This document shows, one piece after another, positions 12,772-60,770 of a stretch of 64,000 nucleotides of DNA (the stretch's first letter is position 1; the number at the start of each line of letters is the position of its first letter). The stretch is from Cynocephalus volans (Eukaryota; Chordata; Mammalia; Dermoptera; Cynocephalidae): contig NC_084462.1 of the NCBI RefSeq assembly GCF_027409185.1, positions 184,006,071-184,070,070 of the forward strand, written 5' to 3'. The position numbers were made by a program, and so were the translations under genes. A model generated the notes under the pieces. It saw only the letters and a program-made list of their open reading frames with translations. It ran no database searches and was not told the DNA's origin.

Positions 12772-12783
12772 TGCCAGGCAAGT

Positions 12784-16930: not shown

Positions 16931-18145
16931 CAGGGGCTGAGCTGTCTGCAGCTGGTGCCGGGCATGGTGAGGCTTGAGTTACTTCTTGTTTGCTCATGCT
17001 TCTAGGTCATACCCCTTCTGGAGCCCTATCTGGAAGTCAGGTGCATTTAGCAGCAGCCTCCTGCTTTGTAGGAGGTCCTGAACCCAGTTTTGTTCTCCCC
17101 AGAACCATAACACAGTTGGGTTTTGCTAAATTTTTCAGCCACTTTATGCTCAGTCTCTCAGCCCTGTGCAGCCAAGTCACCAAATGCCTCAAGAGGAAAA
17201 CTGGCACAGAAGGTCCAGCTATCTTCTCTGCTCCTCTATTCTCTTAATAATCTTGACCCCTCAAATCCTGGTGGCCTGGCAAGCTTGCACCCCAGTATTT
17301 ACCTCCCTAGCTTTGTAGGTTTGCCAAAATCTATCTTACATTTTCTGCTGCTGAGCAGTCTGCTCTGTACCCAGCTTCTCAGCCTCTCAGCCTCACTGCT
17401 TAATCTCTTTTTTTTCTACCCCCCTCCACCCCCTGCTGCCTTTACTGCTTAAGCTCTACCAATTGGAACACCTAGAATGTTAGCTAAAAATAAAATCAAA
17501 AATTAGACACAATTACAGGGAAAAAAAGAGAAATCCCCCTGTACCAGTGGTAAAGTGGGAACTGGAAGCCAGAATGGTCAGGGAGCTGACATCATCTCTG
17601 GGGGGCAGTTTGGACTCAGAAATGTCCGTAATAGCTAAGCGCTTGAGATCCATCCATACAGAGTCAGGAGATGAGGCCTTGTGCATGGTAAAGGGAGAAT
17701 TTAAATTAAGAATCCTGCTCAGAGCTGGGTGTTCAAAGGGTTGTACACACAGGGAAAAGGGCCAGGAAAACTCTACACATGGCCCCCATGAAAGGATAGG
17801 GAAGCTTCTCTATTCCTAGGCTCTGGGTGAATGGAAAAAAACTGCACTGAGAAATTGAAACATCTGGGAAAGCTGACCAGCTAATAAACAGAGCTAAAGA
17901 AACAGCTAGTAAATGGGAAGACTGATCATCAGAAATTAGGCAGATGCAGGAGATGAGATGAAGATATGTAAAATGTGAAAGGACATTGTGAGGCATGGAA
18001 GATAGAATGAAAAGTCCCAAGACATATTCAATGAGTCAAAGCATGAGGAAAAAGAAATGGGTAGTGGCACTGTTCAAAGAGATAATGGATGAGAACATTC
18101 TGGAAATAATCAAAGGCATACATCCTTAAATTTAAGCTGCACAAG

Positions 18146-18252
18146 GGCTGGCCAGTTAGCTCAGCTGGTTAGAGCATGGTGTTGTAACAGCAAAGTTGAG
18201 GGTTCAGATCCCAATACAGGCTAGCCGCAAAAAAAAAAAAAAAAAAAAAAAA
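18146..18252 (+). mobile_element. tRNA-Ile-derived SINE, monomeric, with perfect TSD
   Basis: It begins ggctggccagttagctcag, has a B-box-like ggttcagatcc, and ends in a 24-base A-run. A perfect 14-bp target-site duplication (ttaagctgcacaag) lies at 18,132-18,145 and 18,253-18,266, showing L1-type insertion into the old LINE. The full-length head and clean tail make it one of the younger copies here. It is not a functional tRNA gene: the acceptor stem and anticodon region do not fold as required. Confidence 0.88.

Positions 18253-20402: not shown

Positions 20403-20466
<64 letters not shown>
20403..20466. repeat. (CA)n microsatellite
   Basis: About 30 CA dinucleotides, preceded by a short cgcgcgc stretch. 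It is uninterrupted and therefore probably polymorphic. It lies within the last segment of the old LINE. Confidence 0.97.
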
Positions 20467-29800: not shown

Positions 29801-32495
29801 TAGCCACATCTGCAGTGTCACCACAGCCTAATCAGTTGCAGACTGGCCCCACACGTTACGGAATTCAGCATGGGCAACAAAATGTGGGATAATATTTAAC
29901 AACGTGGAAAGAAGTTTAAGTCGCATCACCCAGGGAAACGTGCAGATTGCAAAGCACAAGCCTTTTTAGGAAAAGCGATGCTTTAAAAATGAGGAGAAGA
30001 TGATCGTGGACACGGTCACATGGCCGTCGCCTGACCGTGGGATTAACAATGATTGTTTTCTGCATGCTCTTATGCATTTCCTATTGTTTTCAGTAATAAC
30101 GTGTATCGCTTTTATCGCTGGAATACAACGTTAAAAAAAACCAGGGGCCGCTGGTCACCCCTCCAAGTACACCATCTACCAGATTCCTGCGGGTGGCGCT
30201 GGCGAGGAGAGGCTGCAGCTGGCTGGGGCTGTGCTCTGCACCCCCACAGCCGCGACCCTGGTCTCTGCAGGTGAAGGAGCTTGGCGCCATCGTCTACAAC
30301 TGCAGCCACCTGGCTGACGACCTGGAGAAGACCTTCCAGACCTACTGGGTGCTGGGGGCGCCCCAGGCCGTCCTCCCCGAAACCTGGCCTCGGAACTTCT
30401 CGTCCCACATCAACCGCTTTCAGCCCCTCCAGGGCCGCTTTGACGGGGTGCCCACCACTGCCTACCTCTCGGTAAGGCGGGTCAAGGGGGGGCCCGCCGG
30501 ACCACAGGGAGCCCCGCGCCTGGCCCTGCAGACCCCGTCAGCACCTGCAAGGTCACAGGAGCCGGTGCATGATGGGGCCACGGTGCCGGGGCAAGGGGCA
30601 GGCTGGACTGCAGGAGAGGACGCCGGTCAGCGCCATCCACGGGAGACAGGCGCCTGGGAGGTGGTGGGGAGTCCTGTGGCCCTCGGAATCTCCAAAGAGA
30701 CTGTCAGGAGGGGACGGGGGCTCCAGTCCAGCCGTCCCCTTACTCTGCGGGGAAGGAAGGGAAGATGGAAGGCAGGCCGGCTGCACCTGGGCAGACCCCT
30801 GCGTGGAGCACAGGGTGGGGTGGACAGCGGCAGGTCTACAGAGGAAACCCCCCACACGTGGGGGCCCACCCTGAAGCGAGTAACTGTTTCTGGGAAGTCA
30901 GTCCAGCCAGGGCCCGGGGAAGGCTGGCTGCTTCTGGCTGTCCCCGCCGGGACTCCGGGCCAGCACCAAGCACCCTGTGTAGACCCTTCCACTTCCCCCA
31001 GCCTTCCAGGGAGCACCTCTCTGCCTCCTCCCTCCACCACCACATGGGGCCTCTTGGGTGGTACACGGTGGACTCGTGGGTCCAGAAAACCAGGAGCCTG
31101 CAGGGACGCCTCTCCCCGCACAGGCATCGCCGCCCGCGCTCTGCCCCCAAGGCCGCACCCGGGACCTGGACGCGTTGCTGGCAGTGATGCGGGCAGCCCA
31201 GGAGTTCATCTATGCCTCGGTGATGGAGTACTTCCCCACCACGCGCTTCAGCCACCCCGCCAGGTGGGACTGGGTGGGAGCCGGGTGGCCATGGAGGGTG
31301 GAGACCCGCTCTGCTGACGGGCAGCTCCTGGGCATGTCCCCTCCTGCCAGGACCCCTACTCATCCCAAAGCTTGTGGGCAGGACCCTGACCCTCCCCTTC
31401 CCCAGGTACTGGCCGGTGCTGGACAATGCACTGCGGGCGGCAGCCTTCAGCAGGGGCGTGCGCGTGCGCCTGCTGGCCAGCTGTTGGCTCAACACGGACC
31501 CCACCATGTTCCCTTACCTGAGGTCCCTGCAGGCCCTCAGCAACCCCTCGGCCAACATCTCTATAGACGTGGTGAGGAGCCGCCTCAGGGCCGGGCTGTG
31601 GGGAAGGTGGCCCTTGTTCCCTCCCTGCCTGACTCGTTCCGTCTCTGTTCCCCCAGAAAGTCTTCATTGTCCCAGTGGGCAATCATTCCCACATCCCATT
31701 CAGCAGGGTAAACCACAGCAAGTTCATGGTCACCGAGAAGGCAGCCTACATAGGTGAGTGGCTGGGAGGAGGTCTGTGGGTGGTGGGCTCTGGGCCCTTG
31801 AGTCTATGGAGGGGCATCAGGTGCCATGGAGGCCACACAAACCCACAGAAGGGTCGTGTGCCCTGGGCGGTGGCTGGGCCAGGGTGCTGAGGCAGACACT
31901 GCTGTCCAGCATGGGCCCCTCAGGACAGAGGGGCTGCTGGGGGGGCCAGGGTCTCAAGTGGAGTTCTAGGGACCAAGCAACCAGCCCAGCTGTCAGCTGG
32001 CCCTCAGGGGCAGGTGGGGAAATCCTGAGCAGCGGCCCCCAGAACAGTGAGTGAGGACGCCTGTCCCAGGGTGACACAGGGGGTGTTGCACTCTGAAGAG
32101 CTAGCTGGCCCTCCACACCCAGGTGAGGGCTGGAGTCCACACCTAAGCGAGGGGCTGTCCGGCTGGAGCTTGGTGACAGTAGAGCGGCCAGTGTGCCCAC
32201 TCTCCGCAGCTCTGCGGCTGGGGCATGGTACTGGGCCGGGCTGCAGAGGGGTCTGCGTGAGCGCAGTGGCTTTCATGCCCACCTCCCCGCAGGCACCTCC
32301 AACTGGTCAGAAGACTACTTCAGCAGCACCTCAGGCGTGGGCCTGGTGGTCAGCCAGAGGGCCCCACGCACCCAGCCAGGGGTGGCCACAGTGCAGGAGC
32401 AGCTGCAGCAGCTCTTTGAGCGGGACTGGAATTCCCGCTATGCCGTAGGCCTGGACGGGCAAGCCCTGGGCCAGGACTGTGTCTGGCAGGGGTGA
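26892..32495 (+). CDS. PLD4: PLD4, 5'-3' exonuclease PLD4 (phospholipase D family), complete
   Basis: Ten exons: 26892-27002, 27458-27630, 28330-28513, 28867-28987, 29522-29649, 30271-30471, 31124-31263, 31406-31571, 31657-31753, 32293-32495 (TGA). All junctions keep phase and give 507 residues (human 506, from memory). Residues 38-59 ([20 protein letters not shown]...) form the single signal-anchor helix of a type II membrane protein. HKD motif 1 is His214-x-Lys216-x4-Asp221 followed by GSANMDW; motif 2 is His428-x-Lys430-x4-Glu435 followed by GTSNW, the PLD3/PLD4 form with Glu in place of Asp. Several N-glycosylation sequons fit a lumenal enzyme. Known role: acid 5' exonuclease on single-stranded DNA/RNA in endolysosomes that limits TLR9/TLR7 signalling. 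The start chosen is the first in-frame ATG (G at -3); the codon corresponding to the human start is not ATG here. Confidence 0.93.
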
Positions 32496-36565: not shown

Positions 36566-39500
36566 TCATTCGGTCACGGGCCTGGACACAGGGTCATCAC
36601 CAGCTTCTTTGTCCTGCTCCAGCAAGATCAACTCTGTTCTCGCCCTGGACGCCACCATCGCTTTGGAGCCTGGCCTGGCACCCATGGCGTCCCCCGGCTC
36701 ACCTTCCTCCTCCTCTTCAGGGGAGAAGCTTTCCTGGGCGTCAAAAAAGGTGACTGTTTCTTCTTGAAGTTTTTGCTCTGCCAGGTCTGCCTCATCTTCG
36801 GTGCTTTTGCTCTTCTTGGTAGGAGAAGAGGAGAACCCTAATTTGGGAAATCGGAACCAGCCCGCCTTCTCCTGCTTCTTAGGCAGCTCTGCCTCCGGCC
36901 GGGCCTCGGGCTGCGTTTGAACAGGAGCAGATCTTGGGACGTCAGCTTTGGAATCAGCACTTGCCTCACCCGCAGAAGAAGAAAACCCAATGTTTGGAAG
37001 CCAAGACCAGAACAGGCCAGAAGATTTTTTACTTTCTGGCTTCTCTTTTGGAGCCCTGTGTCCATCTGCCTGGGGGGTGGTGGCCTCTTGGCTGTCTTCA
37101 GCAGAAAACTCGAGAATTTCTGCTGGTTCCTCATCGGAGCAGCTGCCTGCAAGCTGGCGGCTGGGACGCACTTCAAACGTGAATGCCTGTGGTTCTGGTG
37201 CGCTGACGCTGGAAGAGATGATCTCAAACGGTTCTCCGCTGTCAGGCTGCAGATCTGCAGACATCGAGTCCACTCCTGGAGCAGCTGCAGCGGGAGCCTC
37301 TTCCAAGCCCTCCCGCATCGGAGAGTCTTGAGTCACCGTGCACACTCTAGCCTGCCTGGGGGGCTCTGGGATTTTCACCTTCAGCAAGGAAAATCCATAA
37401 GAAGGCATTTGAATCTCAGACGCAGGGATCTCTGATTCCCTTATGATCTCAGTGGAAAACGCCTCAGGCGCCGAGAGATCTGCAAATTCTGGTGTCAACC
37501 TGCTGTGTATGGTAACCTCCTGACTCTGCACATGAGCACCCTGAATATGCACTCTGACCCTGGGAACTGCGGAAGCTTCCAGGGAGCCATCAAGCCCCAC
37601 AGGCTGCTCCCTGGGGATCCCAGTGCCTGCCTTCAGGATGCTGGCCCCCCAGAGCTCGGGGCTCTCCTGAAGGGCGAGGTCAATCCTGGTCTCTGGACAC
37701 CGCACTTCCCTCACAGTGGGGACGAACACGTCAGCCTCCGAGCTGGCAGCAGGGAAGGAGAACCGTGGCGTTCTCAGTCTGGGGAATCTGACAGTTAGAA
37801 CAGAGTCCTCCCAGAGTCGATCCACGTTGACCACGGAAACCTGGGAGGGCACTTCAGTGCTGGAAGCCTTCAGTGTCAGGGGACCTTCGGGCTGGGAAGA
37901 CCGTCTCTCTGTTCTCTCCTCCACCTGGGCAGGTTCATGTCCTGCCGGCCTAGGAGGGGGCATCTTGGCCATCTCTCCTGCAGGAGCCTGTGTTTCTGAA
38001 AGTCTCGTGCCAGACACCTGAAGAGGGAGGGAGCTTTCGGCTGGATGGATGCTGCCCTTGGAAGGGGAAAGATCAGCCTCGGACATCGCAGCAGCGGGGA
38101 GGGACAGCTTCAAGCCTGTGCCCTCCATATTATATCTAAGGACGTCTGCGTGCAACGGGCCCTTGGAAGCTGTCACATCTGCTTCTGCTTCTGGGGGCCA
38201 CAGAGACATACCTGCCTCCACCTTGGGCCCAGAGACGTGGACCGCCTTGACTCCAGCTGCCTCTTCCTCTGGGGTGGCGCTGGCAGGGGGTGGGAGCTCC
38301 AGCACCTCCCGCCCGCTGGCCCCACCTCTCTCCTTGGACGAGGAGCGTCTGAAGCTGGGCATGCGGAACTTGGGCATCTTAAACCAGCTCTCTGGTGCGT
38401 CCCCTCTCATTGCTCCCGCAGGGGCTCCCTCCTCCGGGCTATCCATTGTGGGCACTTCAGCATCTATTTGTTGACAGGATGTCTGAAGGGGGTCTTCTGT
38501 GGCTAGGGCTGTCCCCTCCCCACAGGGCTGGCTGGCTGGGACATCCCTGAGCCCCATGCCTTGGCTTCCACCTCCGACAGATGGGTCATGTTTGGGAAGA
38601 GGCAGGTCAGCTTTAGACTGGCTCACTTCTACCTTGGCCTTGGAGGATCTGAGATCAGGTTTGGCAAAGCCCAAACTGGGAATGCGGACTTGTGATGGAT
38701 GGACGTCCAAGCCCTCTCCTGGGGAGTCCATGGTTGCAACAGTGTCCCCCCGGCCCCCACCACTGCTGGGCTGCTCTGTGGCTTGGACGTCCCCTCCTGC
38801 CACGGCACTGGAAAGTGAAGGATGCACGTCTGCCTGTCGCAGGCCCACCCCGCCTTTAGAAGCCTTCATTTTGGGAAGAGCAAGTTTCGGCATGGCAAAG
38901 CCAGACATCCTGAGCCTTCCCTTCTCCCCGTCCTTCTCAGGAGGCACATCCGGGGGCACCTCCATGTCAGACACAGCAACCCCAGCCTGGGTGTCCGCCT
39001 GCTCCACGTCTAAAACCACGCTGAGTTTGGCGTCCTCCAGGCTGCATTCAGGGTCCCATCTTGGCTCCACCTCCTTCTTTGGAGACCAGTTAAAAGATGG
39101 AAGCTTGAACCTGGGCATCTTGAAGGGACTCCCTTTCCCTTCACGGTCAGCATTGTCAGCTGGAGCTTCTCCTGGAGCTGTTCCCAAGGGGCCCGACTGA
39201 TCCTCTCTACCCTGGGACACAGGGGTACCCGTGGGGAGCAGCTCGGTGCTTGGCAGTGGGGACACCTGGCCGTCCTCTCCTGAAGAGTCTCCCCGCCACC
39301 CCAAGGTTGAGGAAGACAGAGCTGCAGCATCCCCTGCTGCACGCAAGTCTCCCTCAGGAACTGCCGCTTTCACAACTGGAAATGCAAACTTTGATTGATA
39401 AAACTTAGGAAAAGTCACCTCATGGTAAGATGCAGGAATTAGGGCATCCGCTTTGCCAGGATGGCTGTCGGTCTGTGACAAGGGAATGTCCTCAAGGGCA

Positions 39501-42500
39501 TTCAGGTCAATACAGCTTTGTGGGCTGGGAAGGGGAACATCGGTCTGTGACCCAGAAGAAGATTCCTGAGAAAACTCAGGGCCCAGGGGAGCTCGGGAGA
39601 GAGTCACCTGGTATTTCGTAAGTGTGACACCCCCACCAGTGTGGACAGATGATTCCACATGCGGGCCAGTGAGATCAAGGCTGGCTGAAGCAAAACCCGA
39701 CAGTCCCACCAGGGGCACAAGAGTAGACGGCCCACGGTCCAACCCACACTGCCCCGGCGCCTCAGCGGGCTGCAAGTCCAAAGACATAGCCTCTTGACTC
39801 CGGGGAACACGTGCCCCAAAACCACCTTCAAGGTGTTTAATGTCTTTCCGAGACTTCCCTGAGGAAAAAAAGCCTTTGCGGATGTTAATATGAAGTTTCT
39901 CAGGTTCGGCTTTCTCTTCATCTTTCCCAAATGAGTGACCCAAATCAGTTTCAATATTAAAATCATCAAGACAACCTCCAGGAAGGGTGACAGCAGAGTC
40001 CACCTCACCTAAAATGGAAGCCTCTTCACTAAATGTAATCCTCCCCTCCACCTCTTGAACACTCACAGCAGCCTTACTAGGGGACCATGAAAAAGAAGGA
40101 ATACTGAACTTGGGTATCTTAAACTTGCTGTCTTTGGCGGCCACGTCCTTGTCTCCCAGGGAGAGGTCCCCCTCCAGCTTGGCACCCGGCGCCTGGAGGT
40201 CCACGTCCACGCTGGGCAGCCCCACCTCCACCTCGGGGGCGGTCACCTCCCCCTTGGGGCCTTTCACGTCCAGCTTGGGGCCCTTGATGTCCACCTGGGG
40301 GCCCTTGAGGTCCACTTTCGGCATCTTGATGCTGGGCATCTGCACCTTGGGCAGGTGGCCCTTCAGGCCGGCGCCAGCTGCCTGTGCGCCAAGCTCTCCC
40401 TCGGGCAGGCGGCCCTCCGGGAGCTTCACGCCCACCTGGCCAGCCTTGACGTCCACGTCGGCAGAAGGGGGCTGAATGCTGAGGTCAGTGCCCTTGAGGT
40501 CGCCCTGCACGGAGGGGAGGGTCACGTCCGCCTCCACCTTGGGCGCGGACACGTCCACCGAGGCCTCGATGGTCTTGCCTGGGGCCGACACCCCGAAGGA
40601 CGGCATCTTGAACTTGGGCATCTTGAACTTGCTGTCTTTGGCGGCCACGTCCTTGTCTCCCAGGGAGAGGTCCCCCTCCAGCTTGGCACCCGGCGCCTGG
40701 AGGTCCACGTCCACGCTGGGCAGCCCCACCTCCACCTCGGGGGCGGTCACCTCCCCCTTGGGGCCTTTCACGTCCAGCTTGGGGCCCTTGATGTCCACCT
40801 GGGGGCCCTTGAGGTCCACTTTCGGCATCTTGATGCTGGGCATCTGCACCTTGGGCAGGTGGCCCTTCAGGCCGGCGCCAGCTGCCTGTGCGCCAAGCTC
40901 TCCCTCGGGCAGGCGGCCCTCCGGGAGCTTCACGCCCACCTGGCCAGCCTTGACGTCCACGTCGGCAGAAGGGGGCTGAATGCTGAGGTCAGTGCCCTTG
41001 AGGTCGCCCTGCACGGAGGGGAGGGTCACGTCCGCCTCCACCTTGGGCGCGGACACGTCCACCGAGGCCTCGATGGTCTTGCCTGGGGCCGACACCCCGA
41101 AGGACGGCATCTTGAACTTGGGCATCTTGAACTTGCTGTCTTTGGCGGCCACGTCCTTGTCTCCCAGGGAGAGGTCCCCCTCCAGCTTGGCACCCGGCGC
41201 CTGGAGGTCCACGTCCACGCTGGGCAGCCCCACCTCCACCTCGGGGGCGGTCACCTCCCCCTTGGGGCCTTTCACGTCCAGCTTGGGGCCCTTGATGTCC
41301 ACCTGGGGGCCCTTGAGGTCCACTTTCGGCATCTTGATGCTGGGCATCTGCACCTTGGGCAGGTGGCCCTTCAGGCCGGCGCCAGCTGCCTGTGCGCCAA
41401 GCTCTCCCTCGGGCAGGCGGCCCTCCGGGAGCTTCACGCCCACCTGGCCAGCCTTGACGTCCACGTCGGCAGAAGGGGGCTGAATGCTGAGGTCAGTGCC
41501 CTTGAGGTCGCCCTGCACGGAGGGGAGGGTCACGTCCGCCTCCACCTTGGGCGCGGACACGTCCACCGAGGCCTCGATGGTCTTGCCTGGGGCCGACACC
41601 CCGAAGGACGGCATCTTGAACTTGGGCATCTTGAACTTGCTGTCTTTGGCGGCCACGTCCTTGTCTCCCAGGGAGAGGTCCCCCTCCAGCTTGGCACCCG
41701 GCGCCTGGAGGTCCACGTCCACGCTGGGCAGCCCCACCTCCACCTCGGGGGCGGTCACCTCCCCCTTGGGGCCTTTCACGTCCAGCTTGGGGCCCTTGAT
41801 GTCCACCTGGGGGCCCTTGAGGTCCACTTTCGGCATCTTGATGCTGGGCATCTGCACCTTGGGCAGGTGGCCCTTCAGGCCGGCGCCAGCTGCCTGTGCG
41901 CCAAGCTCTCCCTCGGGCAGGCGGCCCTCCGGGAGCTTCACGCCCACCTGGCCAGCCTTGACGTCCACGTCGGCAGAAGGGGGCTGAATGCTGAGGTCAG
42001 TGCCCTTGAGGTCGCCCTGCACGGAGGGGAGGGTCACGTCCGCCTCCACCTTGGGCGCGGACACGTCCACCGAGGCCTCGATGGTCTTGCCTGGGGCCGA
42101 CACCCCGAAGGACGGCATCTTGAACTTGGGCATCTTGAACTTGCTGTCTTTGGCGGCCACGTCCTTGTCTCCCAGGGAGAGGTCCCCCTCCAGCTTGGCA
42201 CCCGGCGCCTGGAGGTCCACGTCCACGCTGGGCAGCCCCACCTCCACCTCGGGGGCGGTCACCTCCCCCTTGGGGCCTTTCACGTCCAGCTTGGGGCCCT
42301 TGATGTCCACCTGGGGGCCCTTGAGGTCCACTTTCGGCATCTTGATGCTGGGCATCTGCACCTTGGGCAGGTGGCCCTTCAGGCCGGCGCCAGCTGCCTG
42401 TGCGCCAAGCTCTCCCTCGGGCAGGCGGCCCTCCGGGAGCTTCACGCCCACCTGGCCAGCCTTGACGTCCACGTCGGCAGAAGGGGGCTGAATGCTGAGG

Positions 42501-45500
42501 TCAGTGCCCTTGAGGTCGCCCTGCACGGAGGGGAGGGTCACGTCCGCCTCCACCTTGGGCGCGGACACGTCCACCGAGGCCTCGATGGTCTTGCCTGGGG
42601 CCGACACCCCGAAGGACGGCATCTTGAACTTGGGCATCTTGAACTTGCTGTCTTTGGCGGCCACGTCCTTGTCTCCCAGGGAGAGGTCCCCCTCCAGCTT
42701 GGCACCCGGCGCCTGGAGGTCCACGTCCACGCTGGGCAGCCCCACCTCCACCTCGGGGGCGGTCACCTCCCCCTTGGGGCCTTTCACGTCCAGCTTGGGG
42801 CCCTTGATGTCCACCTGGGGGCCCTTGAGGTCCACTTTCGGCATCTTGATGCTGGGCATCTGCACCTTGGGCAGGTGGCCCTTCAGGCCGGCGCCAGCTG
42901 CCTGTGCGCCAAGCTCTCCCTCGGGCAGGCGGCCCTCCGGGAGCTTCACGCCCACCTGGCCAGCCTTGACGTCCACGTCGGCAGAAGGGGGCTGAATGCT
43001 GAGGTCAGTGCCCTTGAGGTCGCCCTGCACGGAGGGGAGGGTCACGTCCGCCTCCACCTTGGGCGCGGACACGTCCACCGAGGCCTCGATGGTCTTGCCT
43101 GGGGCCGACACCCCGAAGGACGGCATCTTGAACTTGGGCATCTTGAACTTGCTGTCTTTGGCGGCCACGTCCTTGTCTCCCAGGGAGAGGTCCCCCTCCA
43201 GCTTGGCACCCGGCGCCTGGAGGTCCACGTCCACGCTGGGCAGCCCCACCTCCACCTCGGGGGCGGTCACCTCCCCCTTGGGGCCTTTCACGTCCAGCTT
43301 GGGGCCCTTGATGTCCACCTGGGGGCCCTTGAGGTCCACTTTCGGCATCTTGATGCTGGGCATCTGCACCTTGGGCAGGTGGCCCTTCAGGCCGGCGCCA
43401 GCTGCCTGTGCGCCAAGCTCTCCCTCGGGCAGGCGGCCCTCCGGGAGCTTCACGCCCACCTGGCCAGCCTTGACGTCCACGTCGGCAGAAGGGGGCTGAA
43501 TGCTGAGGTCAGTGCCCTTGAGGTCGCCCTGCACGGAGGGGAGGGTCACGTCCGCCTCCACCTTGGGCGCGGACACGTCCACCGAGGCCTCGATGGTCTT
43601 GCCTGGGGCCGACACCCCGAAGGACGGCATCTTGAACTTGGGCATCTTGAACTTGCTGTCTTTGGCGGCCACGTCCTTGTCTCCCAGGGAGAGGTCCCCC
43701 TCCAGCTTGGCACCCGGCGCCTGGAGGTCCACGTCCACGCTGGGCAGCCCCACCTCCACCTCGGGGGCGGTCACCTCCCCCTTGGGGCCTTTCACGTCCA
43801 GCTTGGGGCCCTTGATGTCCACCTGGGGGCCCTTGAGGTCCACTTTCGGCATCTTGATGCTGGGCATCTGCACCTTGGGCAGGTGGCCCTTCAGGCCGGC
43901 GCCAGCTGCCTGTGCGCCAAGCTCTCCCTCGGGCAGGCGGCCCTCCGGGAGCTTCACGCCCACCTGGCCAGCCTTGACGTCCACGTCGGCAGAAGGGGGC
44001 TGAATGCTGAGGTCAGTGCCCTTGAGGTCGCCCTGCACGGAGGGGAGGGTCACGTCCGCCTCCACCTTGGGCGCGGACACGTCCACCGAGGCCTCGATGG
44101 TCTTGCCTGGGGCCGACACCCCGAAGGACGGCATCTTGAACTTGGGCATCTTGAACTTGCTGTCTTTGGCGGCCACGTCCTTGTCTCCCAGGGAGAGGTC
44201 CCCCTCCAGCTTGGCACCCGGCGCCTGGAGGTCCACGTCCACGCTGGGCAGCCCCACCTCCACCTCGGGGGCGGTCACCTCCCCCTTGGGGCCTTTCACG
44301 TCCAGCTTGGGGCCCTTGATGTCCACCTGGGGGCCCTTGAGGTCCACTTTCGGCATCTTGATGCTGGGCATCTGCACCTTGGGCAGGTGGCCCTTCAGGC
44401 CGGCGCCAGCTGCCTGTGCGCCAAGCTCTCCCTCGGGCAGGCGGCCCTCCGGGAGCTTCACGCCCACCTGGCCAGCCTTGACGTCCACGTCGGCAGAAGG
44501 GGGCTGAATGCTGAGGTCAGTGCCCTTGAGGTCGCCCTGCACGGAGGGGAGGGTCACGTCCGCCTCCACCTTGGGCGCGGACACGTCCACCGAGGCCTCG
44601 ATGGTCTTGCCTGGGGCCGACACCCCGAAGGACGGCATCTTGAACTTGGGCATCTTGAACTTGCTGTCTTTGGCGGCCACGTCCTTGTCTCCCAGGGAGA
44701 GGTCCCCCTCCAGCTTGGCACCCGGCGCCTGGAGGTCCACGTCCACGCTGGGCAGCCCCACCTCCACCTCGGGGGCGGTCACCTCCCCCTTGGGGCCTTT
44801 CACGTCCAGCTTGGGGCCCTTGATGTCCACCTGGGGGCCCTTGAGGTCCACTTTCGGCATCTTGATGCTGGGCATCTGCACCTTGGGCAGGTGGCCCTTC
44901 AGGCCGGCGCCAGCTGCCTGTGCGCCAAGCTCTCCCTCGGGCAGGCGGCCCTCCGGGAGCTTCACGCCCACCTGGCCAGCCTTGACGTCCACGTCGGCAG
45001 AAGGGGGCTGAATGCTGAGGTCAGTGCCCTTGAGGTCGCCCTGCACGGAGGGGAGGGTCACGTCCGCCTCCACCTTGGGCGCGGACACGTCCACCGAGGC
45101 CTCGATGGTCTTGCCTGGGGCCGACACCCCGAAGGACGGCATCTTGAACTTGGGCATCTTGAACTTGCTGTCTTTGGCGGCCACGTCCTTGTCTCCCAGG
45201 GAGAGGTCCCCCTCCAGCTTGGCACCCGGCGCCTGGAGGTCCACGTCCACGCTGGGCAGCCCCACCTCCACCTCGGGGGCGGTCACCTCCCCCTTGGGGC
45301 CTTTCACGTCCAGCTTGGGGCCCTTGATGTCCACCTGGGGGCCCTTGAGGTCCACTTTCGGCATCTTGATGCTGGGCATCTGCACCTTGGGCAGGTGGCC
45401 CTTCAGGCCGGCGCCAGCTGCCTGTGCGCCAAGCTCTCCCTCGGGCAGGCGGCCCTCCGGGAGCTTCACGCCCACCTGGCCAGCCTTGACGTCCACGTCG

Positions 45501-48500
45501 GCAGAAGGGGGCTGAATGCTGAGGTCAGTGCCCTTGAGGTCGCCCTGCACGGAGGGGAGGGTCACGTCCGCCTCCACCTTGGGCGCGGACACGTCCACCG
45601 AGGCCTCGATGGTCTTGCCTGGGGCCGACACCCCGAAGGACGGCATCTTGAACTTGGGCATCTTGAACTTGCTGTCTTTGGCGGCCACGTCCTTGTCTCC
45701 CAGGGAGAGGTCGCCCTCCAGCTTGGCACCCGGCGCCTGGAGGTCCACGTCCACGCTGGGCAGCCCCACCTCCACCTCGGGGGCGGTCACCTCCCCCTTG
45801 GGGCCTTTCACGTCCAGCTTGGGGCCCTTGATGTCCACCTGGGGGCCCTTGAGGTCCACTTTCGGCATCTTGATGCTGGGCATCTGCACCTTGGGCAGGT
45901 GGCCCTTCAGGCCGGCGCCAGCTGCCTGTGCGCCAAGCTCTCCCTCGGGCAGGCGGCCCTCCGGGAGCTTCACGCCCACCTGGCCAGCCTTGACGTCCAC
46001 GTCGGCAGAAGGGGGCTGAATGCTGAGGTCAGTGCCCTTGAGGTCGCCCTGCACGGAGGGGAGGGTCACGTCCGCCTCCACCTTGGGCGCGGACACGTCC
46101 ACCGAGGCCTCGATGGTCTTGCCTGGGGCCGACACCCCGAAGGACGGCATCTTGAACTTGGGCATCTTGAACTTGCTGTCTTTGGCGGCCACGTCCTTGT
46201 CTCCCAGGGAGAGGTCCCCCTCCAGCTTGGCACCCGGCGCCTGGAGGTCCACGTCCACGCTGGGCAGCCCCACCTCCACCTCGGGGGCGGTCACCTCCCC
46301 CTTGGGGCCTTTCACGTCCAGCTTGGGGCCCTTGATGTCCACCTGGGGGCCCTTGAGGTCCACTTTCGGCATCTTGATGCTGGGCATCTGCACCTTGGGC
46401 AGGTGGCCCTTCAGGCCGGCGCCAGCTGCCTGTGCGCCAAGCTCTCCCTCGGGCAGGCGGCCCTCCGGGAGCTTCACGCCCACCTGGCCAGCCTTGACGT
46501 CCACGTCGGCAGAAGGGGGCTGAATGCTGAGGTCAGTGCCCTTGAGGTCGCCCTGCACGGAGGGGAGGGTCACGTCCGCCTCCACCTTGGGCGCGGACAC
46601 GTCCACCGAGGCCTCGATGGTCTTGCCTGGGGCCGACACCCCGAAGGACGGCATCTTGAACTTGGGCATCTTGAACTTGCTGTCTTTGGCGGCCACGTCC
46701 TTGTCTCCCAGGGAGAGGTCCCCCTCCAGCTTGGGACCCGGCGCCTGGAGGTCCACGTCCACGCTGGGCAGCCCCACCTCCACCTCGGGGGCGGTCACCT
46801 CCCCCTTGGGGCCTTTCACGTCCAGCTTGGGGCCCTTGATGTCCACCTGGGGGCCCTTGAGGTCCACTTTCGGCATCTTGATGCTGGGCATCTGCACCTT
46901 GGGCAGGTGGCCCTTCAGGCCGGCGCCAGCTGCCTGTGCGCCAAGCTCTCCCTCGGGCAGGCGGCCCTCCGGGAGCTTCACGCCCACCTGGCCAGCCTTG
47001 ACGTCCACGTCGGCAGAAGGGGGCTGAATGCTGAGGTCAGTGCCCTTGAGGTCGCCCTGCACGGAGGGGAGGGTCACGTCCGCCTCCACCTTGGGCGCAG
47101 ACACGTCCACCGAGGCCTCGATGGTCTTGCCTGGGGCCGACACCCCGAAGGACGGCATCTTGAACTTGGGCATCTTGAACTTGCTGTCTTTGGCGGCCAC
47201 GTCCTTGTCTCCCAGGGAGAGGTCCCCCTCCAGCTTGGCACCCGGCGCCTGGAGGTCCACGTCCACGCTGGGCAGCCCCACCTCCACCTCGGGGGCGGTC
47301 ACCTCCCCCTTGGGGCCTTTCACGTCCAGCTTGGGGCCCTTGATGTCCACCTGGGGGCCCTTGAGGTCCACTTTCGGCATCTTGATGCTGGGCATCTGCA
47401 CCTTGGGCAGGTGGCCCTTCAGGCCGGCGCCAGCTGCCTGTGCGCCAAGCTCTCCCTCGGGCAGGCGGCCCTCCGGGAGCTTCACGCCCACCTGGCCAGC
47501 CTTGACGTCCACGTCGGCAGAAGGGGGCTGAATGCTGAGGTCAGTGCCCTTGAGGTCGCCCTGCACGGAGGGGAGGGTCACGTCCGCCTCCACCTTGGGC
47601 GCGGACACGTCCACCGAGGCCTCGATGGTCTTGCCTGGGGCCGACACCCCGAAGGACGGCATCTTGAACTTGGGCATCTTGAACTTGCTGTCTTTGGCGG
47701 CCACGTCCTTGTCTCCCAGGGAGAGGTCCCCCTCCAGCTTGGCACCCGGCGCCTGGAGGTCCACGTCCACGCTGGGCAGCCCCACCTCCACCTCGGGGGC
47801 GGTCACCTCCCCCTTGGGGCCTTTCACGTCCAGCTTGGGGCCCTTGATGTCCACCTGGGGGCCCTTGAGGTCCACTTTCGGCATCTTGATGCTGGGCATC
47901 TGCACCTTGGGCAGGTGGCCCTTCAGGCCGGCGCCAGCTGCCTGTGCGCCAAGCTCTCCCTCGGGCAGGCGGCCCTCCGGGAGCTTCACGCCCACCTGGC
48001 CAGCCTTGACGTCCACGTCGGCAGAAGGGGGCTGAATGCTGAGGTCAGTGCCCTTGAGGTCGCCCTGCACGGAGGGGAGGGTCACGTCCGCCTCCACCTT
48101 GGGCGCGGACACGTCCACCGAGGCCTCGATGGTCTTGCCTGGGGCCGACACCCCGAAGGACGGCATCTTGAACTTGGGCATCTTGAACTTGCTGTCTTTG
48201 GCGGCCACGTCCTTGTCTCCCAGGGAGAGGTCCCCCTCCAGCTTGGCACCCGGCGCCTGGAGGTCCACGTCCACGCTGGGCAGCCCCACCTCCACCTCGG
48301 GGGCGGTCACCTCCCCCTTGGGGCCTTTCACGTCCAGCTTGGGGCCCTTGATGTCCACCTGGGGGCCCTTGAGGTCCACTTTCGGCATCTTGATGCTGGG
48401 CATCTGCACCTTGGGCAGGTGGCCCTTCAGGCCGGCGCCAGCTGCCTGTGCGCCAAGCTCTCCCTCGGGCAGGCGGCCCTCCGGGAGCTTCACGCCCACC

Positions 48501-51500
48501 TGGCCAGCCTTGACGTCCACGTCGGCAGAAGGGGGCTGAATGCTGAGGTCAGTGCCCTTGAGGTCGCCCTGCACGGAGGGGAGGGTCACGTCCGCCTCCA
48601 CCTTGGGCGCGGACACGTCCACCGAGGCCTCGATGGTCTTGCCTGGGGCCGACACCCCGAAGGACGGCATCTTGAACTTGGGCATCTTGAACTTGCTGTC
48701 TTTGGCGGCCACGTCCTTGTCTCCCAGGGAGAGGTCCCCCTCCAGCTTGGCACCCGGCGCCTGGAGGTCCACGTCCACGCTGGGCAGCCCCACCTCCACC
48801 TCGGGGGCGGTCACCTCCCCCTTGGGGCCTTTCACGTCCAGCTTGGGGCCCTTGATGTCCACCTGGGGGCCCTTGAGGTCCACTTTCGGCATCTTGATGC
48901 TGGGCATCTGCACCTTGGGCAGGTGGCCCTTCAGGCCGGCGCCAGCTGCCTGTGCGCCAAGCTCTCCCTCGGGCAGGCGGCCCTCCGGGAGCTTCACGCC
49001 CACCTGGCCAGCCTTGACGTCCACGTCGGCAGAAGGGGGCTGAATGCTGAGGTCAGTGCCCTTGAGGTCGCCCTGCACGGAGGGGAGGGTCACGTCCGCC
49101 TCCACCTTGGGCGCGGACACGTCCACCGAGGCCTCGATGGTCTTGCCTGGGGCCGACACCCCGAAGGACGGCATCTTGAACTTGGGCATCTTGAACTTGC
49201 TGTCTTTGGCGGCCACGTCCTTGTCTCCCAGGGAGAGGTCCCCCTCCAGCTTGGCACCCGGCGCCTGGAGGTCCACGTCCACGCTGGGCAGCCCCACCTC
49301 CACCTCGGGGGCGGTCACCTCCCCCTTGGGGCCTTTCACGTCCAGCTTGGGGCCCTTGATGTCCACCTGGGGGCCCTTGAGGTCCACTTTCGGCATCTTG
49401 ATGCTGGGCATCTGCACCTTGGGCAGGTGGCCCTTCAGGCCGGCGCCAGCTGCCTGTGCGCCAAGCTCTCCCTCGGGCAGGCGGCCCTCCGGGAGCTTCA
49501 CGCCCACCTGGCCAGCCTTGACGTCCACGTCGGCAGAAGGGGGCTGAATGCTGAGGTCAGTGCCCTTGAGGTCGCCCTGCACGGAGGGGAGGGTCACGTC
49601 CGCCTCCACCTTGGGCGCGGACACGTCCACCGAGGCCTCGATGGTCTTGCCTGGGGCCGACACCCCGAAGGACGGCATCTTGAACTTGGGCATCTTGAAC
49701 TTGCTGTCTTTGGCGGCCACGTCCTTGTCTCCCAGGGAGAGGTCCCCCTCCAGCTTGGCACCCGGCGCCTGGAGGTCCACGTCCACGCTGGGCAGCCCCA
49801 CCTCCACCTCGGGGGCGGTCACCTCCCCCTTGGGGCCTTTCACGTCCAGCTTGGGGCCCTTGATGTCCACCTGGGGGCCCTTGAGGTCCACTTTCGGCAT
49901 CTTGATGCTGGGCATCTGCACCTTGGGCAGGTGGCCCTTCAGGCCGGCGCCAGCTGCCTGTGCGCCAAGCTCTCCCTCGGGCAGGCGGCCCTCCGGGAGC
50001 TTCACGCCCACCTGGCCAGCCTTGACGTCCACGTCGGCAGAAGGGGGCTGAATGCTGAGGTCAGTGCCCTTGAGGTCGCCCTGCACGGAGGGGAGGGTCA
50101 CGTCCGCCACCACCTTGGGCGCGGACACGTCCACCGAGGCCTCGATGGTCTTGCCTGGGGCCGACACCCCGAAGGACGGCATCTTGAACTTGGGCATCTT
50201 GAACTTGCTGTCTTTGGCGGCCACGTCCTTGTCTCCCAGGGAGAGGTCCCCCTCCAGCTTGGGACCCGGCGCCTGGAGGTCCACGTCCACGCTGGGCAGC
50301 CCCACCTCCACCTCGGGGGCGGTCACCTCCCCCTTGGGGCCTTTCACGTCCAGCTTGGGGCCCTTGATGTCCACCTGGGGGCCCTTGAGGTCCACTTTCG
50401 GCATCTTGATGCTGGGCATCTGCACCTTGGGCAGGTGGCCCTTCAGGCCGGCGCCAGCTGCCTGTGCGCCAAGCTCTCCCTCGGGCAGGCGGCCCTCCGG
50501 GAGCTTCACGCCCACCTGGCCAGCCTTGACGTCCACGTCGGCAGAAGGGGGCTGAATGCTGAGGTCAGTGCCCTTGAGGTCGCCCTGCACGGAGGGGAGG
50601 GTCACGTCCGCCTCCACCTTGGGCGCGGACACGTCCACCGAGGCCTCGATGGTCTTGCCTGGGGCCGACACCCCGAAGGACGGCATCTTGAACTTGGGCA
50701 TCTTGAACTTGCTGTCTTTGGCGGCCACGTCCTTGTCTCCCAGGGAGAGGTCCCCCTCCAGCTTGGCACCCGGCGCCTGGAGGTCCACGTCCACGCTGGG
50801 CAGCCCCACCTCCACCTCGGGGGCGGTCACCTCCCCCTTGGGGCCTTTCACGTCCAGCTTGGGGCCCTTGATGTCCACCTGGGGGCCCTTGAGGTCCACT
50901 TTCGGCATCTTGATGCTGGGCATCTGCACCTTGGGCAGGTGGCCCTTCAGGCCGGCGCCAGCTGCCTGTGCGCCAAGCTCTCCCTCGGGCAGGCGGCCCT
51001 CCGGGAGCTTCACGCCCACCTGGCCAGCCTTGACGTCCACGTCGGCAGAAGGGGGCTGAATGCTGAGGTCAGTGCCCTTGAGGTCGCCCTGCACGGAGGG
51101 GAGGGTCACGTCCGCCTCCACCTTGGGCGCGGACACGTCCACCGAGGCCTCGATGGTCTTGCCTGGGGCCGACACCCCGAAGGACGGCATCTTGAACTTG
51201 GGCATCTTGAACTTGCTGTCTTTGGCGGCCACGTCCTTGTCTCCCAGGGAGAGGTCCCCCTCCAGCTTGGCACCCGGCGCCTGGAGGTCCACGTCCACGC
51301 TGGGCAGCCCCACCTCCACCTCGGGGGCGGTCACCTCCCCCTTGGGGCCTTTCACGTCCAGCTTGGGGCCCTTGATGTCCACCTGGGGGCCCTTGAGGTC
51401 CACTTTCGGCATCTTGATGCTGGGCATCTGCACCTTGGGCAGGTGGCCCTTCAGGCCGGCGCCAGCTGCCTGTGCGCCAAGCTCTCCCTCGGGCAGGCGG

Positions 51501-54500
51501 CCCTCCGGGAGCTTCACGCCCACCTGGCCAGCCTTGACGTCCACGTCGGCAGAAGGGGGCTGAATGCTGAGGTCAGTGCCCTTGAGGTCGCCCTGCACGG
51601 AGGGGAGGGTCACGTCCGCCTCCACCTTGGGCGCGGACACGTCCACCGAGGCCTCGATGGTCTTGCCTGGGGCCGACACCCCGAAGGACGGCATCTTGAA
51701 CTTGGGCATCTTGAACTTGCTGTCTTTGGCGGCCACGTCCTTGTCTCCCAGGGAGAGGTCCCCCTCCAGCTTGGCACCCGGCGCCTGGAGGTCCACGTCC
51801 ACGCTGGGCAGCCCCACCTCCACCTCGGGGGCGGTCACCTCCCCCTTGGGGCCTTTCACGTCCAGCTTGGGGCCCTTGATGTCCACCTGGGGGCCCTTGA
51901 GGTCCACTTTCGGCATCTTGATGCTGGGCATCTGCACCTTGGGCAGGTGGCCCTTCAGGCCGGCGCCAGCTGCCTGTGCGCCAAGCTCTCCCTCGGGCAG
52001 GCGGCCCTCCGGGAGCTTCACGCCCACCTGGCCAGCCTTGACGTCCACGTCGGCAGAAGGGGGCTGAATGCTGAGGTCAGTGCCCTTGAGGTCGCCCTGC
52101 ACGGAGGGGAGGGTCACGTCCGCCTCCACCTTGGGCGCGGACACGTCCACCGAGGCCTCGATGGTCTTGCCTGGGGCCGACACCCCGAAGGACGGCATCT
52201 TGAACTTGGGCATCTTGAACTTGCTGTCTTTGGCGGCCACGTCCTTGTCTCCCAGGGAGAGGTCCCCCTCCAGCTTGGCACCCGGCGCCTGGAGGTCCAC
52301 GTCCACGCTGGGCAGCCCCACCTCCACCTCGGGGGCGGTCACCTCCCCCTTGGGGCCTTTCACGTCCAGCTTGGGGCCCTTGATGTCCACCTGGGGGCCC
52401 TTGAGGTCCACTTTCGGCATCTTGATGCTGGGCATCTGCACCTTGGGCAGGTGGCCCTTCAGGCCGGCGCCAGCTGCCTGTGCGCCAAGCTCTCCCTCGG
52501 GCAGGCGGCCCTCCGGGAGCTTCACGCCCACCTGGCCAGCCTTGACGTCCACGTCGGCAGAAGGGGGCTGAATGCTGAGGTCAGTGCCCTTGAGGTCGCC
52601 CTGCACGGAGGGGAGGGTCACGTCCGCCACCACCTTGGGCGCGGACACGTCCACCGAGGCCTCGATGGTCTTGCCTGGGGCCGACACCCCGAAGGACGGC
52701 ATCTTGAACTTGGGCATCTTGAACTTGCTGTCTTTGGCGGCCACGTCCTTGTCTCCCAGGGAGAGGTCCCCCTCCAGCTTGGGACCCGGCGCCTGGAGGT
52801 CCACGTCCACGCTGGGCAGCCCCACCTCCACCTCGGGGGCGGTCACCTCCCCCTTGGGGCCTTTCACGTCCAGCTTGGGGCCCTTGATGTCCACCTGGGG
52901 GCCCTTGAGGTCCACTTTCGGCATCTTGATGCTGGGCATCTGCACCTTGGGCAGGTGGCCCTTCAGGCCGGCGCCAGCTGCCTGTGCGCCAAGCTCTCCC
53001 TCGGGCAGGCGGCCCTCCGGGAGCTTCACGCCCACCTGGCCAGCCTTGACGTCCACGTCGGCAGAAGGGGGCTGAATGCTGAGGTCAGTGCCCTTGAGGT
53101 CGCCCTGCACGGAGGGGAGGGTCACGTCCGCCTCCACCTTGGGCGCGGACACGTCCACCGAGGCCTCGATGGTCTTGCCTGGGGCCGACACCCCGAAGGA
53201 CGGCATCTTGAACTTGGGCATCTTGAACTTGCTGTCTTTGGCGGCCACGTCCTTGTCTCCCAGGGAGAGGTCCCCCTCCAGCTTGGCACCCGGCGCCTGG
53301 AGGTCCACGTCCACGCTGGGCAGCCCCACCTCCACCTCGGGGGCGGTCACCTCCCCCTTGGGGCCTTTCACGTCCAGCTTGGGGCCCTTGATGTCCACCT
53401 GGGGGCCCTTGAGGTCCACTTTCGGCATCTTGATGCTGGGCATCTGCACCTTGGGCAGGTGGCCCTTCAGGCCGGCGCCAGCTGCCTGTGCGCCAAGCTC
53501 TCCCTCGGGCAGGCGGCCCTCCGGGAGCTTCACGCCCACCTGGCCAGCCTTGACGTCCACGTCGGCAGAAGGGGGCTGAATGCTGAGGTCAGTGCCCTTG
53601 AGGTCGCCCTGCACGGAGGGGAGGGTCACGTCCGCCTCCACCTTGGGCGCGGACACGTCCACCGAGGCCTCGATGGTCTTGCCTGGGGCCGACACCCCGA
53701 AGGACGGCATCTTGAACTTGGGCATCTTGAACTTGCTGTCTCTGGCGGCCACGTCCTTGTCTCCCAGGGAGAGGTCCCCCTCCAGCTTGGCACCCGGCGC
53801 CTGGAGGTCCACGTCCACGCTGGGCAGCCCCACCTCCACCTCGGGGGCGGTCACCTCCCCCTTGGGGCCTTTCACGTCCAGCTTGGGGCCCTTGATGTCC
53901 ACCTGGGGGCCCTTGAGGTCCACTTTCGGCATCTTGATGCTGGGCATCTGCACCTTGGGCAGGTGGCCCTTCAGGCCGGCGCCAGCTGCCTGTGCGCCAA
54001 GCTCTCCCTCGGGCAGGCGGCCCTCCGGGAGCTTCACGCCCACCTGGCCAGCCTTGACGTCCACGTCGGCAGAAGGGGGCTGAATGCTGAGGTCAGTGCC
54101 CTTGAGGTCGCCCTGCACGGAGGGGAGGGTCACGTCCGCCTCCACCTTGGGCGCGGACACGTCCACCGAGGCCTCGATGGTCTTGCCTGGGGCCGACACC
54201 CCGAAGGACGGCATCTTGAACTTGGGCATCTTGAACTTGCTGTCTTTGGCGGCCACGTCCTTGTCTCCCAGGGAGAGGTCCCCCTCCAGCTTGGCACCCG
54301 GCGCCTGGAGGTCCACGTCCACGCTGGGCAGCCCCACCTCCACCTCGGGGGCGGTCACCTCCCCCTTGGGGCCTTTCACGTCCAGCTTGGGGCCCTTGAT
54401 GTCCACCTGGGGGCCCTTGAGGTCCACTTTCGGCATCTTGATGCTGGGCATCTGCACCTTGGGCAGGTGGCCCTTCAGGCCGGCGCCAGCTGCCTGTGCG

Positions 54501-57500
54501 CCAAGCTCTCCCTCGGGCAGGCGGCCCTCCGGGAGCTTCACGCCCACCTGGCCAGCCTTGACGTCCACGTCGGCAGAAGGGGGCTGAATGCTGAGGTCAG
54601 TGCCCTTGAGGTCGCCCTGCACGGAGGGGAGGGTCACGTCCGCCTCCACCTTGGGCGCGGACACGTCCACCGAGGCCTCGATGGTCTTGCCTGGGGCCGA
54701 CACCCCGAAGGACGGCATCTTGAACTTGGGCATCTTGAACTTGCTGTCTTTGGCGGCCACGTCCTTGTCTCCCAGGGAGAGGTCCCCCTCCAGCTTGGCA
54801 CCCGGCGCCTGGAGGTCCACGTCCACGCTGGGCAGCCCCACCTCCACCTCGGGGGCGGTCACCTCCCCCTTGGGGCCTTTCACGTCCAGCTTGGGGCCCT
54901 TGATGTCCACCTGGGGGCCCTTGAGGTCCACTTTCGGCATCTTGATGCTGGGCATCTGCACCTTGGGCAGGTGGCCCTTCAGGCCGGCGCCAGCTGCCTG
55001 TGCGCCAAGCTCTCCCTCGGGCAGGCGGCCCTCCGGGAGCTTCACGCCCACCTGGCCAGCCTTGACGTCCACGTCGGCAGAAGGGGGCTGAATGCTGAGG
55101 TCAGTGCCCTTGAGGTCGCCCTGCACGGAGGGGAGGGTCACGTCCGCCTCCACCTTGGGCGCGGACACGTCCACCGAGGCCTCGATGGTCTTGCCTGGGC
55201 CCGACACCCCGAAGGACGGCATCTTGAACTTGGGCATCTTGAACTTGCTGTCTTTGGCGGCCACGTCCTTGTCTCCCAGGGAGGGGTCCCTCTCACTTTC
55301 TTCTGTTCCCTTTTTAATTTTTGTTGTGTGTTTCTGAGTTTCTTCATGTCGTGTGATATCCCTGACTTCACTGTCATCTGTTATTTTTGTTTCCGTCTTT
55401 TCCTTTGTGATATGGATGTCTTTTTCTGTCTCTGTTCCTTGTATGGGTTTTGCTTCATCTGTCCTTTGCTCCTTGCTGGGTGACCACCCAAATGAGGGCA
55501 TTTTAAATTTGGACATTTTGGTCTTTTCTTCCCTCTTTTCCTTGTCCTTGTCGTCAGTCTGTTTGTCCATTTTTCTGTGCTCCTCTGCATCCTTTTCTGT
55601 CACCTCCCCTTGCCCTGACCCACGTTCCAGGGCTTCTCTGGCCCCCAAACCCTCTTCTCCTGGCTCCCTCTCAACCTCGGGTCCGGGTTCTTCTGCAGAG
55701 CGTCTGCTGTGCTGCAGCTGCAGCTCCGCGGCAGAAATGCCTGTTTCTGTTTTCCTCACAGTGTCTTTTCTTAATCCAAATTTGGGTGCCTTTAAATCGG
55801 GTATTCTGACCCGGATTTCTGGCGTGCGACTCTGTGTGACTCCCTGGGTGGTTGTGTCTTGTAGGGACAGTCTGGCGATCCCAATTTCCAGGCTCTGTAT
55901 TTCTTCCCCTTCAGTCTCCCAGCTCATCCTGGGAGCTGGCTGGGCCCCACTCTTCTTCGGGGTCGTGGTCTGCTCCTGTGCCTTCATCTTTTTCTGACGC
56001 CTGGCTGCCAGGCCGGCTGCTTTTCCTGGTGCCCCCTCACCAGGTTCTGCGGGCCTCTCTGTGACCTGCATGGGTGGCATGTCTTGCACTAGTGCTGCTC
56101 TCTCCTCTTTCCTGCTGCCTACGGTACCCCCTGTCTCCTCAAGCCTGTCGTCGCAGGTCCCTGACTCCTCCAAGACCCCAGTATGACCCATCCCTCCCTG
56201 GGCCTCTGCTCCTGGTTGCACCACCAGAGATGGGCCCCGGCCCGAGCCCGTCCTGAATCTCAGGCCCAGGAATCTCCTCCTCCTGTCGCTGCCCAGCCCT
56301 GCCTTCTGCCGTGGGTGCTCATCCGGGAGCTGCACCTCTGTGTCTGTGCTCGTGGGGGACACATCGGGCACATCCCCACGCTCGTAGGCCTCTGACGAGC
56401 TGTGGGACCTCCGGGGCCCTCGCTTGCTCCTTATTGCTTGGAATTTGGGCCAGGAGAGTCGCTCCTTCTGGGGCCGCCGGCCTCTCCCCACCTTGGGTTT
56501 GATGAGTCTCTCCCTGTCTCCTTCTCCTTCCAGTGTCTTCGTGGGGGTCTCTGTGCATCCATCAGCAATGTCCTTCTCCTGAAAAACAGGGACAGGGGAC
56601 TCATTGGTGCCCGTTCAGGAAGCTTGAGGCCCTGGGCTCAGGAGACAGGGTGGGCGTGCTGGCCCACGTCAGCCTCAGAGGGGGCAGTGACGCCAGCGGG
56701 GTCCAGCCCAGTGGGGCAGGGGTCCTCACCTGCTTCTCCATGCCCTGGGCGCCGTGCCGAGCACTGCTGGACCACTCCTCATCCTCCCTGGCTGGGAGTT
56801 TCCGTTTGATTTTGAACTGAACCTTGTATGGCTCTGAGTACTGAAGGATTTTGAGAGCATCTTCATATTTAATGTCATCAAAGAATATGGTTGCACTGAG
56901 GAGCTGATCCCCTAGACAGAGAAAGAGCAGCCCCCGGGCCTTAGTCCTGTTGCTGGCGGGGAGGGGCCCGCAGAGTCATGAATGTGCTCCCCTGAGCACT
57001 TCAGCAACAGGAAGTGGGGGTCACCCCACTTCACAGATGAGAAAGCCAGGGTGCAGCGGGTGGCCTCCAGCCTGTAAGCAGCTGAGCAGAGGCATGAGGG
57101 GGTCATCCTGAGCTCTGAATGTGGCCCCACCCCTCTAGGGCCCCCTTCCACGTCCCTCCCATCCTGGTGGGGTCAATGGGGACCCCAGGGATGGGGTGGC
57201 TATGGCACCTTCTCTCAAGCTAAAGAGCTTGGCAGCTGAGGAGTCCTTCAGCACTTGCTTGACAAATATCCCCTGGTTCCCGCCACCTGTGACACTGTAG
57301 CCACTGGCTCCAGCCTCCACCTCGGTCTTCAGCGTCACCTCTGTTGCCTCCTGCATGGACTGGGGCAGAAGCACATCAGGGCCATAGTGAGAAATTGCCT
57401 GTCACCACAGGCATCATTGCTGGGGGCCTATGTCTCCTGAGGACCTCATCGTCCTGCCCCTCAACCCAGGAAACACAGGACAAGGGTGGTGGCACCCAAC

Positions 57501-60430: not shown

Positions 60431-60521
60431 GGCTGGCTGGTCTGCTCAGTCAGTTACAGCACAGCATTGATAACACCAAGGTCAAGGGTTCAGATCCCCT
60501 TACCAGCCAGCCGGCCAAAAC
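60431..60521 (+). mobile_element. tRNA-Ile-derived SINE in L1
   Basis: It starts ggctggctggtctgctcag and contains the B-box-like ggttcagatcc. The flanking repeat aaaccaaaata / aaaccaaagta (60,420-60,430 and 60,522-60,532) matches at 10 of 11 bases. It interrupts an L1 fragment whose sequence resumes at 'ggcatttccaaatgaacaaa'. Confidence 0.8.
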
Positions 60522-60770
60522 AAACCAAAGTAAAGGCATTTCCAAATGAACAAAGACTGAGAAAAGTCATTGCTAGCAGATCTGCCTTAGAAGAAATGCT
60601 AAAGAAGTTCTTCAGGTTGAAAGCGACTGACACCTGACACTAACTCAAATCCACAGAAAGAAATGAAGAATGCAGAAAATGGTAAGTATGTGGCCAAATA
60701 TAAATGACTCTATATTTTTTTCTCATTTCATCTCCTAAGTTCTTTAAAAGACACCAGATTATATAAAGCA

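Follow-up and report, generated by a model that had tools for sequence, protein, structure and literature searches.

The minus strand of the 64,000-nucleotide window analysed here (Cynocephalus volans, contig NC_084462.1, positions 184,006,071 to 184,070,070) carries a gene that, judged from its PDZ domain, its giant repeat-filled last exon and its neighbours, is AHNAK2. Within that exon lies a tandem array of thirty 504-bp coding units that are almost letter-identical, including at silent sites. We consider it likely that this array is the AHNAK2 central repeat domain, that concerted evolution within a single exon maintains its uniformity through GC-biased exchange between units, and that it was reset recently.

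The array spans 15,162 bp (40122-55283), consisting of 30 complete units followed by 42 bp, and contains no insertions or deletions. Only nine bases in 15,120 bp (0.06%) depart from the consensus, and they are confined to six positions of the unit. This unit-by-unit comparison confirmed the initial annotation, which had counted 30 exact 504-bp units with nine non-consensus bases. Twenty-two of the 30 units equal the consensus and the other eight hold all the variant bases, giving seven unit sequence types. When units and positions are both numbered from 0 at 40122, the variants fall at positions 47 (unit 11), 61 (units 13, 20 and 25), 425 (unit 13), 411 (units 19 and 24), 12 (unit 27) and 462 (unit 29). 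Nine variant bases do not represent nine independent events, as one site is common to three units and another to two. Two units differ on average at 0.58 positions, which corresponds to a nucleotide diversity (π) of 0.00115 per site, and 233 of the 435 pairs are identical. The first 11 units (0-10; 40122-45665) are letter-identical, a run that is not significant (P 0.14-0.28), and units at the edges show much the same uniformity as the inner ones, up to both array borders. Outside the array, identity at a 504-bp offset was 0.23-0.34, approximately chance, in the stretches tested between 38 and 57 kb. The list produced by Tandem Repeats Finder, in which the longest reported period is 500, has no 504-bp row.

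The variants bear directly on the role of selection. Of the six variable sites, two are silent and the remaining four are replacements. Per unit, 2 of 125 silent sites and 4 of 379 replacement sites are variable; over the whole array there are 2 variant copies among 3,750 silent sites and 7 among 11,370 replacement sites. The divergence of units is close to 0.1% in both classes of site, and although the numbers are small, they give no sign of selection purging replacement variants in preference to silent ones. This equal uniformity therefore indicates copying of DNA between units and not protein selection alone, as had been argued initially. If strong purifying selection on the unit kept the copies alike, we would expect the frame to be kept in all units and the amino-acid sequence to be shared, and indeed the former holds in 30 of 30 units and the latter in 23 of 30. 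However, uniformity is much the same at silent and at replacement sites, most of the variable sites change the protein, and the paralogue AHNAK tolerates divergence between its units within the same architecture. As the sole cause, purifying selection is already contradicted, and we regard this explanation as extremely improbable.

The comparison with AHNAK comes from a genome-wide search with the unit as protein, which gave 26 AHNAK rows with 32-48% identity to the AHNAK2 unit. AHNAK has the same architecture and related repeats, but its units are 384 bp long, with a median identity between adjacent units of 0.742 (maximum 0.977), a GC content at third codon positions (GC3) of 0.495 and an observed-to-expected (o/e) CpG ratio of 0.11. 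These identities come from 29 of 35 windows (six were dropped for N), each at its best lag, which flatters AHNAK. Because the AHNAK units have diverged, architecture alone does not force uniformity. Five of the 29 adjacent windows in AHNAK reach 0.92-0.98 identity and 22 are below 0.85, and codon windows 1066-1322 and 2218-2346 look like small local duplications or conversions. Like the AHNAK2 array, UBC of this genome is a homogenised series of coding units arranged head to tail in a single open frame, and its GC3 is high (0.823). It differs in having nine units of 228 bp with a mean identity of 0.978 and a third-position divergence of 5.3%. One genome therefore contains two giant genes built alike, of which AHNAK2 has a homogenised GC-rich array and AHNAK has diverged GC-neutral repeats, and this contrast allows recombination bias to be tested against selection as a force shaping coding sequence.

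Base composition provides a new lead beyond the initial observation, namely a step in GC3 at the array. GC3 is 152/168 (0.905) in the unit and 917/1,629 (0.563) in the remainder of the frame, which takes in 12 codons before the acceptor (Fisher P 1.8e-20). The quarters of the unit have values of 0.98, 0.81, 0.90 and 0.93, whereas GC3 next to the array is 0.33 (the final 43 codons on its N-terminal side) and 0.36 (the first 100 codons beyond it), so that each border marks a rise from roughly 0.35 to 0.90. GC at fourfold sites is likewise 0.88 in the unit against 0.57 and 0.52 in the flanking parts of the exon, CpG o/e is 0.55 against 0.40 and 0.38, and second-position GC is lower in the unit (0.41 against 0.49 and 0.51). 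Since the step coincides with the array borders, it is unlikely to stem from the base composition of the region, and it favours long-running GC-biased homogenisation over one-off amplification. With mutation biased two- to threefold towards AT, the bias needed would be about B = 2.7-3.1, if silent sites are near equilibrium. Among the six variable sites, one change is strong-to-weak, one is weak-to-strong and four are neutral, three of the six being of the C<->G type. We found no G-quadruplex pattern on either strand of the unit, and no human-type PRDM9 13-mer on either strand, the animal's own PRDM9 not having been examined.

Similar base composition has been reported in other DNA with near-identical copies. 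According to PMC8981503, X-chromosome palindromes with arm identity above 99% have higher GC than their flanks, with GC-biased conversion as the process. Human segmental duplications are described in PMC10172114 as having high GC and an excess of C<->G changes, attributed to GC-biased conversion; the three C<->G sites in our array match this pattern, which by analogy is suggestive only.

The arrangement of variants points to copying in blocks. Units 19-20 and 24-25 carry the same in-register pair of variants, spanning 155 bp, and both units with 411A precede a unit with 61G, which has a chance of 0.007 given two 411A and three 61G units. This recurrence of a linked pair, together with an exact match of 3,478 bp in which the shared variants are included, is therefore very probably the trace of a five-unit block copied after the variants had arisen. 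The third 61G, in unit 13, requires a further copying event or a recurrent change. We also compared the variants with simulations of steady-state exchange in an array fixed at 30 units, in one lineage, without a population and without GC bias, of which 95-130 arrays per model had six segregating sites. A π as low as that observed occurred in 0.9-5.3% of these runs, and 2.1-7.1% had no variant above three copies; runs that were short may not have reached equilibrium where exchange was rare. The surplus of rare variants (D = -1.76) is moderate and speaks against a steady state alone. Variation at the observed level was reproduced with roughly 6-60 exchanges for every point mutation in an array, depending on block size. 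With a mutation rate of 1.2e-8, the models would put unit exchange at roughly 0.1-1% per gamete, as an order of magnitude only.

These data also bear on the possibility that a single unit was amplified once and recently, without lasting homogenisation, its high GC being due to chance or descent. The star-like excess of rare variants and the uniformity of the edge units are both in keeping with such an event, as is an approximate age of 0.26 million years for the units now present, calculated from π and a rate of 2.2e-9 per site and year and meaningful only as an order of magnitude. However, a single amplification would lead to the GC3 step only if it had started from a GC-rich unit, and the linked variants were copied after they arose. 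Moreover, the human array has 24 units of another length (165 residues, according to PMC10682155, which agrees with the length given in the initial annotation), so an array of this kind is probably old and has been renewed. We therefore think this explanation unlikely. The initial annotation had left the choice between recent amplification and continuous homogenisation open; GC3 now favours long-running homogenisation with a GC bias, and the spectrum of variants tends towards a recent reset in addition. Lasting homogenisation with a last reset that was probably recent fits both the block copy and the rare-variant excess.

We propose that misaligned sister or homologous arrays would swap blocks of whole units. 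As 504 bp preserves the frame, each event would replace units or shift the length of the protein by steps of 168 residues. Repair of heteroduplexes during these exchanges would prefer G and C and would, over a long time, bring silent sites to high GC, and the latest reset would be recent, probably an expansion from one or a few units. Such exchange may be tolerated because function would need only a repeat of a general kind, charged and rich in Lys-Pro, and not an exact number or sequence of units. More speculatively, the exon may be a self-sustaining target of recombination, in which exchange raises GC and identity, identity sustains exchange, and most of the silent sequence of this giant protein's gene is written by repair bias and not by selection. 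We hold this stronger version to be possible but rather doubtful; if true, protein length would change within pedigrees.

Several points weigh against concerted evolution with GC-biased exchange. The sequence tests concern one haplotype and the AHNAK2 of one species, and in the GC3 test thirty near-identical copies amount to a single observation. The same step could arise if the founder unit was GC-rich by chance, a doubt that the abstract of PMC8981503 raises for palindromes as well. First-position GC, too, is higher in the unit (0.72 against 0.59 and 0.63), and the six variable sites are not enough to reveal a GC bias in the variants now present. At least four single-copy variants occurred in 6.2-16.8% of the simulated runs, so this count is not unusual. 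In addition, UBC is a loose control, since its protein is unchanging and it lies in another region.

Copy number is the weakest point of the analysis, which covers one haplotype; when a second one was sought through the sequences flanking the array, each of them matched the genome once, in the window itself. The initial annotation had cautioned that an assembly artefact could look like this array, either because the true units differ or because their number is wrong. The longest exact repeat inside the array is 5,087 bp, which is shorter than usual high-fidelity (HiFi) reads, and reads well beyond that length can therefore order the units. This weakens the caution, which still stands. Nine scattered variants have survived without any indel or break in the frame, the same assembly separates the diverged units of AHNAK and UBC, and smoothing at the base level would not create a GC3 step relative to the flanks. 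On the other side, the copy-number mistakes in GRCm39 noted in PMC12903361 include Ahnak2, Ubc and Flg, and PMC12090573 lists poorly supported stretches at IGH on SUPER_3 of the VGP primary assembly (GCA_027409185.1), probably near AHNAK2. Taking these together, we judge an artefact of assembly or polishing to be very unlikely. With 30 loss-of-function calls on T2T-CHM13, human AHNAK2 ranks in the top ten of ClinVar genes for such calls (PMC12581843), and these calls may partly reflect the same difficulty with copy number. If the number of units varies, the length of a protein of nearly 700 kDa may vary in 168-residue steps that are hard to detect with short reads.

The features of the window are listed in the table below.

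Features of the AHNAK2 region in the window (positions of the 64,000-nucleotide stretch)
Feature	Position	Strand	Basis or remark
Coding tandem array, 30 x 504 bp (168 codons) + 42 bp	40122..55283	-	Unit-by-unit comparison
Two-variant haplotype, E>V in unit 19 and A>P in unit 20	50109..50263	-	Recurs at 52629-52783, 2,520 bp (five units) away
3,478-bp stretch that recurs at an offset of 2,520 bp together with its shared variants	47744..51221	-	Exact match
AHNAK2 giant last coding exon, 20,013 bp, 6,670 codons + stop	36566..56578	-	Acceptor AG and open frame
Giant exon, N-terminal non-repeated part	55284..56578	-	GC3 drops from 0.69 to 0.33 approaching the array
Giant exon, C-terminal non-repeated part	36566..40121	-	Diverged unit-like pieces and FKMPxFxMPSF-like motifs
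Exon, PDZ second half	56730..56911	-	Boundaries by eye; translated match
Exon, PDZ first half	57209..57359	-	Boundaries by eye; translated match
CEP170B-like frame	670-2895	+	CEP170 C-terminus match, E 3.7e-150
PLD-like frame	30100-31314	+	Weak match, E 2.2e-5, 24.7 bits, under the Pfam cut-off of 27

The assignment to AHNAK2, made in the initial annotation, is supported by the PDZ match, the exon layout and the neighbours. The spliced 84-residue PDZ peptide matched AHNAK2 (4cn0) with an E value of 3.9e-46 and periaxin (4cmz) with 1.1e-27. The gene is distinct from two frames elsewhere in the genome, labelled from their architecture: an AHNAK-like frame of 5,912 codons (C4) and a periaxin-like frame (C18) of 1,297 codons with a PDZ match next to it. 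The CEP170B-like and PLD-like frames both lie on the 3'-end side of the gene, and in human, AHNAK2 at 14q32 adjoins PLD4 and CEP170B. The array makes up 75.8% of the giant exon, and the minus-strand frame through it is unbroken over 6,682 codons from stop to stop, with a single terminal stop. On the plus strand, an antisense frame of 5,130 codons without a stop (40091-55483) crosses the whole array; it is expected, because the unit is a multiple of three without a stop in that frame, and we found no evidence for a gene in it.

The product of the stop-to-stop frame is 692 kDa, and that of one unit has 168 residues, 17.2 kDa and an isoelectric point of 5.5. Its self-similarity peaks at lags of 5 and 7 residues (lags 1-39 were covered), consistent with short Lys-Pro motifs. 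The unit gave no match to solved structures up to E 1 or to Pfam families up to E 0.01, and a structure prediction for two units without an alignment (predicted local distance difference test score 37, predicted template modelling score 0.23) supports no claim of a fold. By analogy with the periaxin tail, as described in PMC7072810, the repeat region may be a flexible, probably disordered scaffold. The C-terminal part of the exon aligns to the unit with a score of 172 (maximum 76 in 100 shuffles) and the N-terminal part with 99 (maximum 64 in 100 shuffles); judging from these alignments, the flanks seem to hold the decayed remains of earlier generations of units, beyond the reach of homogenisation. 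Several diverged copies of the FKMPxFxMPSF motif occur in 36566-40121 along with the unit-like stretches.

Elsewhere in the window, which ends 3.1 Mb short of the end of the contig, a pure CA repeat of 31 copies (20405-20466) is a possible marker for phasing array alleles. Interspersed tRNA-like elements occur at 12781-12940, 18140-18240 and 60450-60530, and ARAGORN scores one of them (12858-12932) as tRNA-Val. Such elements look colugo-like, but this call does not support the tRNA-Ile origin that we assume for colugo short interspersed elements (SINEs). A comparison with SINE signatures of other mammals gave a single poor match to B1 and three to an elephant SINE, which we ascribe to chance.

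Among known systems, filaggrin (FLG) resembles the array in undergoing unequal exchange of large near-identical units within one exon, and differs in its longer unit and fewer copies. Human AHNAK2, as described in PMC10682155, shares the PDZ start, a giant exon (about 17,559 bp), a long central array and a C-terminal tail; it has 24 units of 165 residues, compared with 30 of 168 here. A table of repeat-filled introns in PMC4079513 lists an AHNAK2 interval of 11,844 bp with 24 copies. Our literature search found no paper naming both AHNAK2 and concerted evolution. In mouse, Ahnak2 and other genes with coding variable number tandem repeats likewise have coding repeats of changing copy number, and in the 251 genes covered by PMC12903361, where Ahnak2 is named as a long repeat of this type, the GC of these repeats is above the reading-frame average. 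The π between mouse units given there is 8.95e-3 in Ubc, 7.99e-2 in Fam186a and 0.107 in Muc4, compared with 1.15e-3 in our array. The units of the AHNAK2 array of C. volans apparently stay alike because they repeatedly overwrite each other, a process that is already known and that takes an extreme form here.

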